The notes under the pieces: generated by a model
Seen by the model: only the letters and a program-made list of their open reading frames with translations
Databases searched by the model: none
Told to the model about the DNA's origin: nothing
Program-made: the position numbers and the translations under genes
DNA from: Ignavibacteria bacterium
Lineage (GTDB): Bacteria > Bacteroidota > Ignavibacteria > Ignavibacteriales > Ignavibacteriaceae
DNA: 62,468 bases
Assembly: GCA_021286645.1 (NCBI GenBank)
Contig: JAJTBZ010000101.1
Span: 1 to 62,468, forward strand
Direction of reading: 5' to 3'
In this document: piece after piece, positions 11,241 through 50,881 of the stretch
How the letters are laid out: each line of letters opens with the position of its first letter
Numbering within the stretch: position 1 is the stretch's first letter

Positions 11241-12161
11241 TCAGGATATCTCTACGGTTATTGCACTTTTCTGTTTCCTGATGATATGGTAAAGTTTACG
11301 AATTAGCACAAAAAACAAAAACAAACTAAACGCAACCGCAGCAGATGTTGGACCGCTGGGTAAATCCGTAATAAATGCGAAATACAGCGAAACCGGTGGC
11401 ACAACTCCGGCAAATAATATAGCGATCAGAAAAACTCGGTTCACTCTTCTTCCACCTAAAAGACCAATTGAGGCAGGTATAACCAAGAATGCGAATGTAA
11501 AAACATCTCCTACCAATCGCGTCGTTATCGAAATGCCTATTCCAACAGCCAAATAAAACAGGAATAGCCAGAACCGCGCTTTTAATCCATGCGCCTGTGC
11601 TGTTTCAATATCAAATGTTACAAATTGCAACTGTTTTCTGAATAATAAAAAGATTCCAAGTACCATTATGGTAACTATAAGCAAGGTAATAAATCCATGA
11701 AAGTTGATAAATAACAAATCACCCTTCATTATAGATTCTATCTCTGCTGCTTCACCAACCGGACTCTTTACCGTAAATATTATCCTCAGCGCAACTGAGA
11801 TTATAAAAATTAATCCCAATACAATATCCTGAGTGATTTTCTTATTGCGGTATGATTGTGAAAATATTACTACTGCAGTAATAGCAAATAGTAATGAAAA
11901 AAACACCGGCTCGAAATGATGAAAATATGATTCATGAGTTGCAGGGACACCGGTGATTTTGGTTATCCACCCCTCCAGATCGAGGACGTGAAAGAATGAG
12001 AACGCGACCCCGGCAAGCGATGCCTGGGTAAGTACTCCGCCAAGAAAGACCGCTCGTTGCGAAACAACAAAAACACCCAGAAAACTACATATCATTCCGG
12101 CAAGAATACTACCTGCCACCGCGTAGGGAAATAACTCAATTATTTGTTTTATAACGTCCAT
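11241..12161 (-). CDS. Metal ABC transporter permease (ZnuB/MntB family)
   Basis: Inner-membrane permease of the ABC-3 family for Zn2+ or Mn2+ uptake. About eight or nine hydrophobic segments are visible, with family motifs SFLGVFVVSQRAVFLGG near the N-terminus and VGDVFTFAFLVIPASIG toward the C-terminus. The start is ATG 12161, whose first base overlaps the TAA stop of the ATPase gene (TAATG), with AGAGGGG upstream; a longer in-frame extension exists but runs inside the ATPase gene and is unlikely. With this start it is 306 residues, slightly longer than typical. The periplasmic loop between about residues 78 and 100 is longer than usual. Zinc is favoured over manganese only because of the neighbours. 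Confidence 0.92.
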   Translation of the reverse strand: MDVIKQIIELFPYAVAGSILAGMICSFLGVFVVSQRAVFLGGVLTQASLAGVAFSFFHVLDLEGWITKITGVPATHESYFHHFEPVFFSLLFAITAVVIFSQSYRNKKITQDIVLGLIFIISVALRIIFTVKSPVGEAAEIESIMKGDLLFINFHGFITLLIVTIMVLGIFLLFRKQLQFVTFDIETAQAHGLKARFWLFLFYLAVGIGISITTRLVGDVFTFAFLVIPASIGLLGGRRVNRVFLIAILFAGVVPPVSLYFAFITDLPSGPTSAAVAFSLFLFFVLIRKLYHIIRKQKSAITVEIS

Positions 12162-12925
12162 TAGATACCCCTCTTTCCCGGTAATATTACATACTCCCCT
12201 TCTATACATGAAACACTCATGGGTGAATTATACAAACGGGTAAGCATATCGTTTGTTAATACTTCTTCTTTAGGTCCAAAATAGAACCCGTTCCTATCTA
12301 CCAGACCTATTTTTTTTACAACATTTGCCACATCGGTAAGCAGGTGGCTTACCAAAACTATTGCAGTATTGTTTTCATTATGAAGCCGGGAAATCAAGTC
12401 AACCAAAGCATAATGGGAAGGCGTATCCATGCCATTTGTTGGTTCATCAAGCACCAGAACGTCAGGCTCAAGTGAAAGTGCCCTGGCAATTAATACCCTT
12501 TGACGTTGCCCCCCTGAAAGACTGGTGAAGTTAGCATCACGCAGATTCACAATCCCTACCAATTCCAGTGCTCTCTCCACTGTTTCCTTGTCTGCTCTGG
12601 AAGGCCGGTTCAGAGTGCCAATGAGCGGGAACCTGCCCATAAGGACCACTTCACGCACCGTATAAGGTAACAGCGGCTGAACAGTATCCCGCTGCGGAAC
12701 ATAGCCAAAACGAACATTTTGTTGGGTAATTGTACCGGAAATCGCCGGTAAACTGCCCAGTATTGTTCGGAGAAGCGTGGTTTTACCCGCGCCATTAGGC
12801 CCGACAAGACCGATAAAATCATCGGGAGTGACTGAAAAAGTCACTCCCTGAACAATTATCTTTTTACCATATCCCACGGCAACATTTTTCAGTTCGAATA
12901 ATATTTCCCGGTTGGAAGTACTCAT
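12161..12925 (-). CDS. Metal ABC transporter ATPase (ZnuC/MntA family)
   Basis: A 254-residue ABC ATPase that powers the adjacent permease. Walker A GPNGAGKTTLL, Q-loop YVPQRD, signature LSGGQRQRVLIARAL, Walker B VLVLDEPTNGMD and the switch histidine in LVSHLL are all intact. It lies 14 bases downstream of the binding-protein gene and overlaps the permease start by one base, so the three are one translationally linked unit. The N-terminal MSTSNREILFELKNV is a little long but plausible. Confidence 0.94.
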   Translation of the reverse strand: MSTSNREILFELKNVAVGYGKKIIVQGVTFSVTPDDFIGLVGPNGAGKTTLLRTILGSLPAISGTITQQNVRFGYVPQRDTVQPLLPYTVREVVLMGRFPLIGTLNRPSRADKETVERALELVGIVNLRDANFTSLSGGQRQRVLIARALSLEPDVLVLDEPTNGMDTPSHYALVDLISRLHNENNTAIVLVSHLLTDVANVVKKIGLVDRNGFYFGPKEEVLTNDMLTRLYNSPMSVSCIEGEYVILPGKRGI

Positions 12926-12939
12926 AATATTTTAATTTC

Positions 12940-13815
12940 CTAAATTCCATCAAATGCTTTAATTATTGAATCCATCATAGCAATATATGAGGGAGCCTGA
13001 GGCGAGCCTCCTACTGCTGTTGCAGTCTTATATACCTTTGCACCGGTTAACCTTGCAATTTGGTTGGGGGCAGCATCACTGTAAAAATTCTCCATAAGAA
13101 TCAGCTTGATGCCATTATTTTTTACAATATTAATCACATCAGCATTATGTGAAGGCGATGGTGCAATGCCGGGTTTAGGCTCAACATAACCGGCAGCCAC
13201 TATACCATATCTCTCACAAAAATATATCCAGCTGGCATGAAATGTTATTATCTTCTTCCCCCGTTTCGAGGCCATGGCAGCTTGCCATTCTTTCATTTTG
13301 GCATCGAGGCGATGCAAATATTCATGAGTATTTTTTTCATAATATGCGGCATTCGCCGGATCACGTGCAATGAGTGCTTCAGAAATCTCTTTCACCATAA
13401 TTTTAGCATTCTCGGGATCCAGCCAATAATGGGGATTACCAAAAGGATGCACATCGCCCTGGCTTCCATCAGTTTTCGTAGTAGGCACTTCCCGCTTACT
13501 AATATTTTCTGATAAATCAACGACATGTAGTTTAGAATTCCGCGAACCATCTATTAACTGCTGTGCCCAGCCTTCAAGACCAAGACCAACTTTAATAAAG
13601 AGATCTACATTTCGAATCTTAAGCATATACGTTGGTAATATTTCTACGAAATGAGGGTCTTGATCGCCTCGACAAATATAATCGACCTTAACCTTTTCCT
13701 TCCCGATTTCACGAACAAAATCACTAATAACCGTTGTAGTAGTTACAACTTTAACCTGGGCAAATACATTTGCCATACTCAATATCGCAATAAGTACAAT
13801 TACTATCTTTTTCAT
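12940..13815 (-). CDS. Zinc/manganese ABC transporter substrate-binding protein
   Basis: Periplasmic cluster A-I (TroA/ZnuA-like) binding protein of 291 residues with a Sec signal peptide (about residues 1-19, cut after FAQ or nearby). Candidate metal ligands are His55 in DPHFVEI, His129 in NPHYWLDP, His193 in TFHASW and an acidic residue in the C-terminal LILMENFYSD region. A short loop SQGDVHPFGNPH contains an extra histidine (123) but lacks the long His-rich loop of classical ZnuA. Second gene of the operon, 14 bases after the porin gene. Zn versus Mn cannot be settled from the sequence. Confidence 0.93.
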   Translation of the reverse strand: MKKIVIVLIAILSMANVFAQVKVVTTTTVISDFVREIGKEKVKVDYICRGDQDPHFVEILPTYMLKIRNVDLFIKVGLGLEGWAQQLIDGSRNSKLHVVDLSENISKREVPTTKTDGSQGDVHPFGNPHYWLDPENAKIMVKEISEALIARDPANAAYYEKNTHEYLHRLDAKMKEWQAAMASKRGKKIITFHASWIYFCERYGIVAAGYVEPKPGIAPSPSHNADVINIVKNNGIKLILMENFYSDAAPNQIARLTGAKVYKTATAVGGSPQAPSYIAMMDSIIKAFDGI

Positions 13816-13829
13816 AAAAAATCCTCTTG

Positions 13830-15008
13830 TTAAAATGGATGCGCTTTATGCGGTCCAAGTGAAAAAATCATCTGCAACTGAACTGTATTTCGCGGATCAG
13901 GATTCGGGCCATCCGCTACTGAAAACTGCAACGATTGAAAACCCAATCGTAGCGCCAGTGTTTCTTCTACGGGGTAATAGCCAATCCACCCTTCATACCC
14001 CATTGTTTTATTTTTACTATCATTACCCAGGGTTGTATTACCGGGAGTATCACCAATGAGACCATAAGTAAAGTCATATTTACAACCGACTGAAAATTGC
14101 TTATCAAATCGATAATCAATTGACATAAAAGCACCGGTGGTAGAGATATGATCTAAATTTTGTATAGTATTTACTCCATCGGAATAGGAACGAACTACAT
14201 CCCTATTATTAAGGATCGCTTCACCCTGAAGCACAAGTGAAGTATAAGCGTCTGGTTTATATTTGTATTTGAAATCCAGCCCGGTATAGCAAAAATTGAG
14301 TGCCTTGATAACCGAAGGCAAACTAGTATCACCTGTAACAGAAACGGCTTGCTTATCCAATAAACCGCCGGCAATACTGACCCCCAACTCGAAATTGGAC
14401 TCATCACTTAACGTGAAAAAACCATTCCATCTGGCAACTCCTATCGGGTTATTACCCCGTCGTTGCTTTGCAGCTTCATAGGTATCTTCCGCAGAAATTG
14501 AATGAGTTAACGCATCCCCCCGAAAAACTCCAATATCGATGCCTGAGTAGAACGATTCAAAAGGAAGAATAAAACTAAAATTTGCCCCAATATCGTTAAA
14601 CCCATCCGGGCTAAAATATATCTGATGAAATAACGGCCTTTGCAGAAACGGCCAGGCATGCGGATGAACAGTATTTAATTTACCGAAACCCACCAGAAAT
14701 TTACCAGCTTTTATTTGCATATCAAGGGGTAACCCATTTACAACATGAGCGTATAATTCTTCAACACCGAATGAGCCATCCTCGTAAGAAATAACCGCGG
14801 CAGCTTTAGCGAATGGATTCAAATACCCCTCGACAAGCATTTCCACTTCCGGATCGGTAAATACAAGTTTCCCTTTATCGGGATCATTTTTTGTAAAATT
14901 TGTTGAAATTCCGGTTGTGCCTATAAGACTAATATCCGGATTTACGTTGGATTGCGCCCAAACTGTAATAGCTAACAGCAGGCACAACATAAAACCATGT
15001 TTTACCAT
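13830..15008 (-). CDS. Outer-membrane porin-like protein of the metal-uptake operon
   Basis: Predicted beta-barrel of 392 residues. The signal peptide (MVKHGFMLCLLLAITVWAQ) is followed by alternating hydrophobic/polar strands throughout, and it ends in a short segment that does not show the canonical aromatic C-terminus. The start is ATG 15008 because AGAGGAAAG precedes it; an upstream in-frame ATG at 15095 would add a non-signal extension. The segment HPHAWPFLQRPLFHQIYF (residues about 124-141) is rich in His and may line the pore. As first gene of the ABC metal-transporter operon it probably lets the metal or a metal complex cross the outer membrane; that role is inferred from position only. 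Confidence 0.75.
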   Translation of the reverse strand: MVKHGFMLCLLLAITVWAQSNVNPDISLIGTTGISTNFTKNDPDKGKLVFTDPEVEMLVEGYLNPFAKAAAVISYEDGSFGVEELYAHVVNGLPLDMQIKAGKFLVGFGKLNTVHPHAWPFLQRPLFHQIYFSPDGFNDIGANFSFILPFESFYSGIDIGVFRGDALTHSISAEDTYEAAKQRRGNNPIGVARWNGFFTLSDESNFELGVSIAGGLLDKQAVSVTGDTSLPSVIKALNFCYTGLDFKYKYKPDAYTSLVLQGEAILNNRDVVRSYSDGVNTIQNLDHISTTGAFMSIDYRFDKQFSVGCKYDFTYGLIGDTPGNTTLGNDSKNKTMGYEGWIGYYPVEETLALRLGFQSLQFSVADGPNPDPRNTVQLQMIFSLGPHKAHPF

Positions 15009-15095
15009 AAACTTTCCTCTATATAAATATTTGTAATTACGTGTATACATGCAGATGTACGAATACCCTGCTGTATTGAATATAAAAAGGAACAT

Positions 15096-28379: not shown

Positions 28380-30371
28380 ATGCATTTTCCGATTTCAAGG
28401 CAAATTGGAATCATTGTATCTATAAGCCTGGTTATTACCTTAGGTACAATGATTGCGGTTCTTACGTATCAGGAAAGCGAACATAAACTAGAGGAGACAC
28501 AAAGCTTCGCTCAAAATTTAAATCTCTCTTTCACTACCTCTCTCGAATTTGCTATGTCTCAGGGTATTACCGATGTTCAACCAGTTAAAGAAAAATCCAA
28601 ATTAATCCCCGGTATATCTGAACTCACAGTGAAAGCATCAAAGATTATATCGAACAAATCTGAAAATGAAATGGATTCGGATGAGCGAGATGTACTTGCA
28701 ACAAAAAAAACCATTGGGAAGACAGAAGATTTTCAGGGGAAACCGGTATTTCGGAGCATCCGGTCAATTGTTGCCGACAAATCATGTGTTACTTGCCATA
28801 ATTGTGATATCGGCTCTGTATTGGCAATCGTTAGTCTAAGGTATTCCCTAGCAGGGGCACATGCAGATATTGCAAACTTACGCCAGACAGGAATATTATT
28901 TTGTATTTTAGTTATTCTCAGTACTTTCTTTATCGCGATGTACTTTATCAAAAAACGAATTATTGCTGATCTTGATACAGCGATTGGACATTTGGATACT
29001 TTAAGTACGGGCGATTTGGCCGAAGTCCCCACGCTGGAGCGTGTAGACGAGATTGGGAAATTGAATCACTCGGTAAAAAAACTGAGGGATTTTATGGAAT
29101 TAAAAGCACGGCTTGCCACCGATCTGTCTGAAGGAAATATCGACATAGACGTCCCTCTGCTTTCGCAAAATGATATTTTAGGAAAAGCTTTTATTAAAAT
29201 AAGGGTAAGCCTCATAACCCTTGTTGATGACCTGCATGAACTAGCTCGAAGTGTAGCTGAGGGGCGCTTACATTTCAGGGTTGCAACAGATAAACATTCC
29301 GGCCAATTCCGTGAGATAATATCGAGTACGAACAATGCAATCGAAGCTATTACCAGACCGGTTGATGGCAGTACAACTGCACTGCAACAACTTTCGGAAG
29401 GCGACTTGACGATAAAACTGGAGGGAAACTACCCCGGTGATTATGGCCGAATAAAGAACAGTATTAATCTGGTTGTTGAAAATTTAAATGGCGCCATTGC
29501 AGATGTATCGGAGGCAATCAATAAAACTTCCACTGTAATCGTCAACATTTCAACAACGAGTGAAGAAATGGCTGAAGGTTACCAGAAGCAGGTGGAACGG
29601 ATTGGTGAAATAACAGCAGCAATTGAAGAAATGACCAGTACAATTCACGATAATACCCGAAATATTACACATGCAGCAGATTTAGCTAAATCTGCCGGTA
29701 ACAAAGCAGCAGAAGGCGGAGAAGTAGTGAATCAAACAGTCGATGGTATTAATCGGATAGCACAGGTGGTTGCTTCCTCGGCGGAAACTATTTACGCCAT
29801 GGGTAAAAATAGTGATAAGATAGGCGAGATTGTTGCGGTGATTGACGAAATAGCTGACCAGACAAATCTACTCGCCTTAAATGCAGCCATTGAAGCCGCC
29901 CGTGCCGGTGAACAGGGCCGGGGTTTTGCTGTAGTTGCCGATGAAGTAAGAAAACTCGCTGAAAGAACTGCAAAGGCCACAAAGGAAGTTGATGGTATGA
30001 TTCGCCAAATACAAAAAGATACCACAAATGCCGTCGAATCTATCAAAGCCGGAACTGTAGAAGTTGAACATGGTATAACTCTCGCGAAGGAAGCCGGAGC
30101 CGTTCTACACGAAATTGTACAGAGCGCACGCAGTGTAACCGATATAGTTACTCAAATTGCTTCTTCAAGTGAAGAGCAGGCAAAAACTTCGGAAGAGATC
30201 GCCGAAAATATTGAGGCTGTCAATTCCGTTACCCAGGAATCGAACAACAGCATTGGTATGATAGTCTCGGCTGCTGAAAACCTTAACGAGTTGAGCACAG
30301 TACTTACTAATATGGTCGCTAATTTCAAATTGGTAGAAGATGAAAACTCTATAATTACCATAAGTAGATAG
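28380..30371 (+). CDS. Methyl-accepting chemotaxis protein with periplasmic CxxCH haem motif
   Basis: A 663-residue transmembrane chemoreceptor. Transmembrane helix 1 spans about residues 8-29 and helix 2 about 170-190. The periplasmic domain between them holds CVTCHNC (haem c motif at residues 136-140), close to the membrane, in the setting [21 protein letters not shown]. After helix 2 come one or more HAMP domains (about 191-360) and the signalling domain with the hairpin tip [35 protein letters not shown]-type sequence (seen in parts), which contacts CheA/CheW. The haem suggests sensing of redox state, O2 or NO. GAGGG precedes the ATG. No chemotaxis genes are adjacent. Confidence 0.93.
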
Positions 30372-49470: not shown

Positions 49471-50595
49471 TTAATAGAAGAAATGAAATTGCAATACCGC
49501 CGCGTTATTTTTTATTTCGGGATCTTCCAGATGGAATCTGTATTGTGGAATAATCTCAACAAAGCTAACCGGAGTCCAATTTAGTCCTAAAATAACATGC
49601 TGTAGTGATAACTTATGCGTCGCTGGGGCTGCCGGATCATCACCGGTCATTGAGTCGTAGCGAACTTGTCCTTCAAGGCCTTTTGTTAAAACCAGCGCGG
49701 CCTCTGCCATGAAAACTTTTACGGTAGAACCTTGAATATAATAATCCTTGCCTTGATCGTACTCGGCCAGTAATGTAAGAGAATGATACCCGGCCCCAAA
49801 ATATCCGCCATATATTTGCGAATTCAGTTTATCGCCGGTATTATTATCCAATCTTTTCACGGATGCGAAAGAAACACCTGTCATCAGATTAAAATCATCC
49901 GAAGTATACGGGAGTACCTGCAATTTAGTTATATAAGCGGGCTCATTCTGAAATGTCGGGGTACCATCACCTCCGGTACTTACAGAAAGTTGTACAATAT
50001 CTTTGAAATTATAACCTGCTTCAGCTCCGGTAAGAATATATTTAGGACCGAATGGCAATCCATATTGAGTATTTGTGATAACGTTCAGATCGCCGCCACG
50101 GGTATATGCTGAATGATCGTCGAGACGGAGGCCAAAATCAGGGGCAAACGATCCTGCTTTCACATAAAGATTTCCAATATTTACAATTCCATAGCCTTCC
50201 CAAATTTTCTGAATAAAATCGTAACGGGCGAATGTATGAATCCCGGGAGAAAGATCTACGTTGAAATATACCGATCCGGTCATCCGGTGGAAATCACTAC
50301 GGGTTGATGATGAATCAAAAGCAACAAGCATCTGTGTGCGATAGTCAAATCCGAAAGTAATATTCTTCCCTATTTTCGGGCTCATCTCAAAGGATTCGTC
50401 CGAAGTGTATGTATTCCACATTTTTAAGGTATTTTTGCCGTAGGTCCATCCTCCCTCAGTACGAATGGCACCCCCGGTCGGGTTAACGTGGCAATCAGAA
50501 CAAAGCGCACCTGTGCGAAGAGAAAATCGGGGAAGGGCGAAAACTGAAGCGCTTAGTGCGAAAATTAAAACCACAATTGCTAATGTTGCTTTCAT
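49471..50595 (-). CDS. Cyc2-like fused monohaem cytochrome c-porin
   Basis: A 374-residue exported protein. Signal peptide (about 1-20, MKATLAIVVLIFALSASVFA), then LPRFSLRTGALCSDCHVNPTGG with one haem c motif (Cys32, Cys35, His36), then about 14-16 amphipathic strands to an aromatic C-terminus (AVLQFHFFY), that is, an outer-membrane barrel. An N-terminal cytochrome on a barrel is the plan of Cyc2, which oxidises Fe(II) at the outer membrane; related monohaem barrels of unknown function occur widely in FCB and Desulfuromonadia. The haem segment here (CHVNPTGG) differs from canonical Cyc2. The start is ATG 50595, with GAGGATG ahead. Monocistronic. Confidence 0.78.
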   Translation of the reverse strand: MKATLAIVVLIFALSASVFALPRFSLRTGALCSDCHVNPTGGAIRTEGGWTYGKNTLKMWNTYTSDESFEMSPKIGKNITFGFDYRTQMLVAFDSSSTRSDFHRMTGSVYFNVDLSPGIHTFARYDFIQKIWEGYGIVNIGNLYVKAGSFAPDFGLRLDDHSAYTRGGDLNVITNTQYGLPFGPKYILTGAEAGYNFKDIVQLSVSTGGDGTPTFQNEPAYITKLQVLPYTSDDFNLMTGVSFASVKRLDNNTGDKLNSQIYGGYFGAGYHSLTLLAEYDQGKDYYIQGSTVKVFMAEAALVLTKGLEGQVRYDSMTGDDPAAPATHKLSLQHVILGLNWTPVSFVEIIPQYRFHLEDPEIKNNAAVLQFHFFY

Positions 50596-50881
50596 AACAT
50601 CCTCATATAGAATTATTTGATATAGTAACACACACACTAAAGTAACATAGGCTCAAAGTGAAAAGTTCCGTCCGATCAATATATTAGCACTGCACACTTT
50701 TTGTTTTCTCGGTTGAAATACTGAAATTTGCATGAAGAATCTTTATTAAGCGAGGTTGATAGCAATTACCCTGCTTAATGGCCGGGTCAAACGCAAAAGA
50801 ACGAATGTGTAAAATTGACTTTCTACTGAGATTTGAAGCATTCTGCGCAATCAACTGTTTTTATATTAAGGACACGTAACT

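Follow-up and report, generated by a model that had tools for sequence, protein, structure and literature searches.

A conserved Ignavibacteria family of predicted monohaem outer-membrane porins with a Cyc2-like haem segment

A haem c attachment motif placed ahead of a predicted outer-membrane barrel raises the question of whether the gene at 49471-50595 in the 62,468-nucleotide stretch of Ignavibacteria DNA analysed here (the window) encodes an electron conduit comparable to Cyc2, or a porin in which the motif has another role. We infer, with confidence better than even and well short of certainty, that the product is an Ignavibacteria monohaem cytochrome-porin moving electrons across the outer membrane, a reading in which the covalent haem, its plug position and ligand, the electron transfer itself, and its substrate and direction would all be deduced from the evidence below.

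The first-pass annotation had given exact coordinates, and the frame was found on the minus strand as a complete gene (49471..50595) encoding 374 amino acids plus a stop codon (49473-49471), with the protein ending in F-F-Y. The plus-strand frame over 49471-50595 is interrupted by stops and contains no intact reading. The ATG at 50595 was preferred as the start over a longer, GTG-started open reading frame because a Shine-Dalgarno-like GAGGA stretch, read from the sequence at 50600..50604 on the minus strand, sits 4 nt upstream of it. A scan of the region was uninformative, with nine promoter-like sites, compared to 4.6 expected, and no terminator-like site. The gene is single copy in its own 3.7 Mb genome, and as each of 34/59 genomes (own included) carries a single full-length homologue, at 41-51% identity with the own copy set aside, it is not a chance open reading frame. 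Searches of the protein sequence against Pfam, NCBIfam and PDB sequences yielded no match at E<=10.

Translation of the minus strand, on which all of the following features lie, bore out the signal peptide and the single CSDCH at residues 32-36 that had been proposed. The leader, assigned by inspection to residues 1-20 (50536..50595), has a lysine at position 2, a hydrophobic core and a VFA cleavage site directly followed by LPRF, and relatives retain the leader immediately ahead of an LPRF-like motif. An N-terminal haem segment and linker follow (residues 21-78, 50362..50535), with the pattern LPRFxxRxGxxCxxCHxNPTGGxxR, helices in the AlphaFold2 model and a profile match to Cyc2-type proteins. 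This segment includes the CSDCH haem c attachment motif (C32-H36, 50488..50502), which holds both of the protein's two cysteines, and, after the haem site, a VNPTGG loop (residues 37-42, 50470..50487) that is temptin-like rather than Cyc2-like. Residues 79-373 (49477..50361) are predicted to form a 16-strand beta-barrel, based on AlphaFold2, a fold match to OprO and hydrophobicity alternation; the barrel anticipated in the first-pass annotation is upheld by this prediction, and its size of about 340 residues is revised to ~295.

AlphaFold2 modelling of the mature protein with 73 sequences gave a mean pLDDT of 89.1 and a pTM of 0.86, with the expected 16-strand barrel after the haem segment. 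The segment itself is modelled as short helices at mature residues 2-8, 12-15 and 27-35, with pLDDT, averaged in blocks of ten, of 83-89 over mature residues 1-40 and 76 over 41-50; these inputs resolved a segment that had fallen below pLDDT 50 at residues 33-67 when the precursor was modelled with 30 sequences. Of the solved structures that were re-aligned, OprO (4rjx) came nearest, at Z 25.8 with an rmsd of 2.8 over 292 residues, followed by OprP (2o4v) at Z 25.1; since general 16-strand porins reach Z 22-24, close behind, the barrel fold is not specific. Alternation of lipid- and lumen-facing hydrophobicity by alignment column was present in most strands inspected, as expected of a barrel. 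Model and fold comparison together support the suggestion that a haem segment is fused to a 16-strand barrel as in Cyc2. OmpU aligned with the model from residue 1 on, and its N-terminus sits in the lumen, which is only a hint for the plug position. The single PDB match of a 30-relative profile, the c-type cytochrome 8e5f_A, had an E of 0.82 over 39 positions and was taken as chance.

An alignment of 93 sequences (73 core and 20 class-level members) provides candidates for the distal haem ligand, as C32, C35, H36, M105 and H161 are invariant (93/93) and H371 is present in 91/93. In the model, strands 5 and 6 are joined by a long loop (residues 151-187, 50035..50145) that carries a highly conserved run and occupies what we take to be the position of the porin constriction loop L3. 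H161 belongs to a DDH in this loop (residues 159-161, 50113..50121), of which D159 and D160 are each found in 92/93. It is favoured as the distal ligand because it is invariant and on the constriction loop, whereas M105 (50281..50283), though also invariant, was set back as first choice by its lipid-facing register in strand 2 and is retained as an alternative. H371 (49483..49485), lumen-facing on the last strand, may be an alternative ligand or a relay. H161 would most likely be the distal ligand, and the haem likely plugs the barrel lumen; the conservation of H161, M105 and H371 makes the ligand question directly testable.

By taxonomic family, the homologues occur in 24/37 genomes of the host's family (f1), 10/17 of a second (f2) and 0/5 of a third (f3). 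A single-sequence scan of named genome contigs found no relative, but an alignment query of the same contigs succeeded, yielding 150 relatives of which 80 loci were kept. Most of them are titled Ignavibacteria, Ignavibacteriales, Ignavibacteriaceae, Melioribacter or unspecified Bacteroidetes MAGs; records outside this range occur singly, for instance one each from Kryptoniota, Chlorobiaceae and Hodarchaeum. The last of these (L036, contig JAEOUE010000170.1 of a Candidatus Hodarchaeum mangrovi MAG) has the gene order of the Ignavibacteriaceae contigs L034 and L039, clusters with them on the tree and is probably misbinned. The 80 loci were combined with 30 of the 34 genome-search places, the two sets sharing some contigs, and dropping L095 (contig end) and L099 (masked) from these 110 loci left 108 intact homologues; filtering to below 85% identity leaves 73 sequences. 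All 108 intact homologues (108/108) have exactly one CxxCH, and 87 of them exactly two cysteines; the more distant class-level members likewise have one CxxCH each (20/20).

Across a phylum-wide sample, 84/395 genomes had a match at E<=0.001, many partial or weak and some to the barrel only, with strong full-length matches confined to the host's class. One family match (G126:C15:176002-176871) lies inside an apparent 24413-aa open frame that possibly reflects masked bases. Porin_4 (PF13609) was matched by 6/30 members (best 4.4e-5). The earlier suggestion of a poorly described FCB family is in line with the profile scans and distribution: it lies mainly in one FCB group, the Ignavibacteria, and neither Pfam nor NCBIfam has a dedicated model for it. 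This is a real, conserved, mainly Ignavibacteria family of probably haem-bearing outer-membrane porins.

Cyc2 is reported as an iron oxidiser in excerpts of Keffer et al. (PMC8406198), where its motifs are given as AXPXFAR[Q/K][T/Y] just upstream of CXXCH and PXL shortly downstream, and OprO/OprP are named as its fold matches; a positive haem stain for Cyc2 appears in an excerpt of a further study (PMC10937671). As a reference, a consensus of the published motif retrieved 12 plasmid records, nine with full Cyc2-type proteins and three with weak Sinorhizobium matches, a set picked by motif and profile in which none of the records is annotated as Cyc2. Seven plasmid records were fetched and six full-length proteins aligned, omitting L115 (frame cut to 279 aa); L125, an incomplete sequence from a related genome, was set aside as well. 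A c-type cytochrome gene lies downstream of the Cyc2-type gene in 6/7 fetched records, and the six aligned proteins show A-x-P-x-F-x-x-Q-T-G-x-x-C-x-x-C-H. The common register, P-x-[F/Y/L], seven residues and CxxCH, is present in 87/93 members of the family studied here, and the window protein has a single N-terminal CXXCH, a signal peptide by inspection, a length of 374 aa (at least 365 aa for Cyc2) and a predicted 16-strand, OprO/OprP-like barrel.

Profile comparisons place this similarity at the N-terminus. The 73-sequence profile matched Cyc2-type proteins at 92.7% (E 4.1e-7, 39 columns) over the signal peptide and haem motif only. With the leader removed, the mature proteins matched at 60.6% for the core family (E 8e-5, 34 N-terminal columns), 81% for a Kryptoniota-like set and 92.4% for the class-level set, and the haem segments alone of all three sets reached 95.0-96.5% (E 4e-8 to 9e-10), compared to 5-20% for the same segments against two CytoC_RC haem sites and PSCyt1 as controls. 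A six-sequence Cyc2-type profile matched only the cytochrome-porin in its own genome (E 0.003, positions 10-44). Barrel-only profiles of the family and Cyc2-type gave no match (0.1-1.6%). This divergence is uninformative on kinship with Cyc2, because the barrels of Cyc2-type and what we label FARKY-type proteins fail too (1.4%, against 99% for their haem segments). Four barrels with an N-terminal CxxCH, two of which belong to a different family in the phylum, form a mixed group that the class-level set matched over nearly its full length (329 columns at 96.6%, E 7e-10, and 80.6% for the barrel by itself), and the core set matched this group at 64% only.

Neither published Cyc2 motif was found in the family: AXPXFAR[QK][TY] is present in 0/93 members (0/73 core, 0/20 class-level), and PXL downstream of CXXCH in 0/93 compared to 13/13 Cyc2-type proteins. 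As the strict first motif occurs in only 7/13 Cyc2-type proteins (PXFAR[QK][TY] in 9/13), PXL is the sharper test. The first-pass annotation had remarked that CHVNPTGG sets the protein apart from Cyc2, and indeed CH-x-[ND]-P-x-G is found in 69/73 core members and 0/13 Cyc2-type proteins. A tblastn search with the window protein that covered plasmids returned none of the nine Cyc2-type records at E<=10 (the Cyc2 threshold being E<=1e-5), and its output was weak: 11 Escherichia records aligned elsewhere in the protein at E 3-6, and one Cupriavidus place over query 7-59 at E 7. Of the expected likeness to Cyc2 and porin profiles, the haem segment matched Cyc2-type proteins, and the published motifs, barrel-only comparison and Pfam porin search did not. 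Filing the protein as Cyc2 was ruled out by the 0/93 count for either motif and by barrels that do not match. By sequence and model, haem segment and fold class tie the family to Cyc2, but it lies outside the Cyc2 motif definition; the cytochrome-porin may work like Cyc2.

Separate full-length Cyc2-type genes (L118-L125) were found in 8/59 related genomes (G004, G017, G031, G040, G044, G045, G052 and G055, with two copies in G017), 5 of which also hold the cytochrome-porin family; in G004 the two genes are on the same contig, ~7 kb apart. Excerpts of earlier work report Cyc2 homologues in Ignavibacteriaceae MAGs (He et al. 2019, PMC6344600) and, for sites D2 to D6 with their dominance of Cyc2 cluster 3, iron-oxidation genes in Ignavibacteriales (Casar et al. 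2021, PMC8478452). Loci L065 and L092 of the present family come from MAGs named DeMMO6.

The cytochrome-porin gene is flanked in the window by genes for an MscS-type channel, an M64 peptidase, a 126-aa open reading frame without a Pfam match and an isochorismatase. No cytochrome gene adjoins it in the window or in its own tree branch, and the lack of electron-transfer neighbours remarked on earlier is true of the window but untrue of the family. In a survey of 80 loci (79 contig-scan loci and the window, with genes from a simple greedy ORF script), CxxCH was present in 25/60 same-strand adjacent genes compared to 14/817 other genes (Fisher p 2.6e-22, on loci that are not independent). This value was computed before the CHWCH protein adjacent in L082, which reads as thioredoxin-like, was dropped, leaving 24/60 adjacent genes as cytochrome-like. 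Pfam searches of representatives assigned these to three unrelated kinds: upstream monohaem Temptin_C proteins with a T9SS sorting tail in 17/80 loci, 15 of them within 150 bp (the three that were examined all passed the TIGR04183 cut-off); dihaem cytochromes of CytoC_RC type, upstream in five cases; and cytochromes of PSCyt1 type, downstream in two cases, with a third (L104) one gene further. Each kind is clustered on the tree, where the four labels need 7 changes and 50/74 labelled loci, host branch included, have no cytochrome neighbour. A conserved redox partner in the own branch was considered and rejected, as the recurrent neighbours there (Dxr and RseP, labelled from sequence) look like chromosomal order. 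Temptin_C is found in 10/10 f2 genomes bearing the cytochrome-porin (15/17 f2 genomes overall) and in 0/24 such f1 genomes, the own genome among those without it, so that the pairing is clade-specific. The Temptin_C-type protein at L050:7229-7900 and 18 similar proteins carry CxxCH, with a T9SS tail in the three scanned, and are by sequence a candidate surface monohaem cytochrome family.

The own genome contains three PF01578 (CcmC/CcmF/CcsA-type) genes, two inside an apparent Ccm cluster whose other members were assigned by reading only. The protein is in this respect an exported CxxCH protein in a cell with haem-attachment genes, as a c-type cytochrome should be (by a profile test covering PF01578 only). 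COX1-type genes occur in four places, two near full length, alongside several c-type cytochromes; a 13-CxxCH, 481-aa protein lies near a 117-aa monohaem cytochrome, part of which matches Pfam Cytochrom_C. These oxidases and cytochromes are possible partners of the cytochrome-porin. Elsewhere in the window, a methyl-accepting chemotaxis protein (28380-30371, plus strand) with a CVTCH at ~28785 and a Tll0287-like domain (4.4e-6, residues 70-141) is a possible haem-c redox chemoreceptor, and the region 11241-15095 (minus strand) holds genes whose products look like the permease, ATPase and binding protein of a metal-type ABC transporter, preceded by a barrel-like open reading frame (13830-15095, minus strand) with no Pfam match at E<=0.001.

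If the protein is an electron conduit, it would be exported by Sec, after which the Ccm system would attach haem c to C32 and C35 with H36 as one axial ligand, and the BAM machinery would insert the 16-strand barrel. The N-terminal segment would fold into the lumen from the periplasmic side, an invariant residue there (H161 being the likeliest) would become the other ligand, and electrons would hop via the haem between periplasmic cytochromes and a donor or acceptor on the outside. In Melioribacter-type relatives, the outer partner would probably be the T9SS-exported temptin-type cytochrome encoded just upstream. This account is favoured by the single CxxCH in all 108 core and 20 class-level members, the haem-attachment, COX1-type and c-type cytochrome genes of the own genome, a barrel model nearest folds also named for Cyc2, a haem segment matching Cyc2-type far above controls, and cytochrome-like neighbours of three unrelated kinds, each clustered on the tree. 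Weighing against it are the own branch without an adjacent cytochrome, the long hop that a single haem would have to span without a partner inside the pore, the whole mature core family matching Cyc2-type at only 60.6% and at the N-terminus alone with barrels that do not match, and a barrel fold that other porins share. A more elaborate version, which we hold tentatively and consider less probable than its negation, is an Ignavibacteria-specific one-haem electron gate parallel to Cyc2, with the haem at the constriction loop bound by H161 and with interchangeable partners, such that in one clade the T9SS-exported temptin-type surface cytochrome would complete a two-protein, two-haem wire from surface to periplasm.

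The same evidence bears on three other explanations. The haem could be a redox sensor or structural plug gating an ordinary solute porin, for which the closeness of the barrel to the phosphate porins OprO/OprP, the conserved loop in the constriction-loop position and the window branch without a cytochrome neighbour all speak; we consider this unlikely, as three unrelated cytochromes beside the gene in different clades are better explained by electron transfer and the haem segment is akin to that of Cyc2, an iron oxidiser in excerpts of PMC8406198. Improbable to a similar degree is a specific Fe(II) oxidase, a diverged Cyc2 feeding electrons from outside iron to terminal oxidases. It would account for the haem-segment register and fold class common to Cyc2, the COX1-type oxidase genes, and the excerpted reports of Cyc2 homologues in Ignavibacteriaceae (PMC6344600) and iron-oxidation genes in Ignavibacteriales (PMC8478452), but it is at odds with the absence of either published motif from all 93 members, with the separate Cyc2-type genes of related genomes, five of which hold both families, and with excerpts describing group members as heterotrophs (PMC8478452), some of them reducing iron (PMC7399161). 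Finally, the cysteines might form a disulfide in an ordinary porin. The haem is here a prediction from sequence, and eukaryotic temptin domains are not known to carry the cysteines and keep the glycine motif that follows them; nevertheless, we regard this as very improbable, given that none of the 128 members examined has lost any part of CxxCH, the histidine among them, that haem-attachment genes are present in the own genome, and that the register is that of Cyc2, which stains for haem in an excerpt of PMC10937671.

In open-licence literature on Ignavibacteria, Melioribacter and Bacteroidota outer-membrane cytochromes, porins, Cyc2 and extracellular electron transfer, we found no evident description of this family. 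With a single haem and neither of the published Cyc2 motifs, the family could be missed by surveys of extracellular electron transfer, which rely mainly on multihaem counts, porin HMMs, or Cyc2 HMMs and motifs, or be counted by them as a low-scoring Cyc2. It is present in 34/59 sampled genomes, mostly of the host's own family, and if electrons are moved, a compact electron-exchange route would be added to a widespread, mostly uncultured group.

Among known systems, MtrAB and OmbB-OmaB-OmcB share the purpose of an electron route through an outer-membrane barrel, but such porin-cytochrome complexes pair the barrel with a multihaem cytochrome that is a distinct protein, as described in an excerpt of PMC7399161, whereas here one haem would belong to the barrel chain itself; in place of a porin gene beside a multihaem cytochrome gene there is one fused chain, and the window holds no multihaem gene. 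Of the solved folds that were re-aligned, OprO/OprP (PF07396) come closest (Z 25.1-25.8), but they are phosphate-selective porins without a haem segment; the cytochrome-porin has no match to Porin_O_P PF07396 in Pfam at E<=10, and the score of one class-level member, 19.8 bits, falls short of the 20.9 cut-off. The Temptin_C (PF24784) CxxCH proteins with a T9SS tail have a CxNCHxxPxGGGxRNxFG loop that matches the family's haem segment at 97-98%, but are predicted to be secreted and have no barrel; PF24784 itself has no match in the cytochrome-porin (Pfam) or in its genome (E<=0.001).

The FARKY-type barrels (L164, L165, L167, L168, L170-L172, L174 and L176-L180), which come from the same order, resemble the family in an N-terminal CxxCH followed by a barrel, the P-x-F-(7)-CxxCH register (13/13), a length of ~390 aa and occurrence in many of the same genomes, with none in the own genome (Cyc2-type profile, E<=1). 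They differ in carrying the Cyc2 motif (strict form 10/13) and PXL (13/13), of which the family has neither, and although their barrel does not match Cyc2-type, Cyc2 surveys may count them. Relative to Cyc2 itself, FAR[QK][TY] is replaced by F[AS][LV]R and PXL by NPTGG in a chain whose barrel is not recognisably alike; what the family has in common with Cyc2 is the signal peptide, the P-x-F, seven residues and CxxCH, and a predicted 16-strand barrel nearest OprO/OprP.
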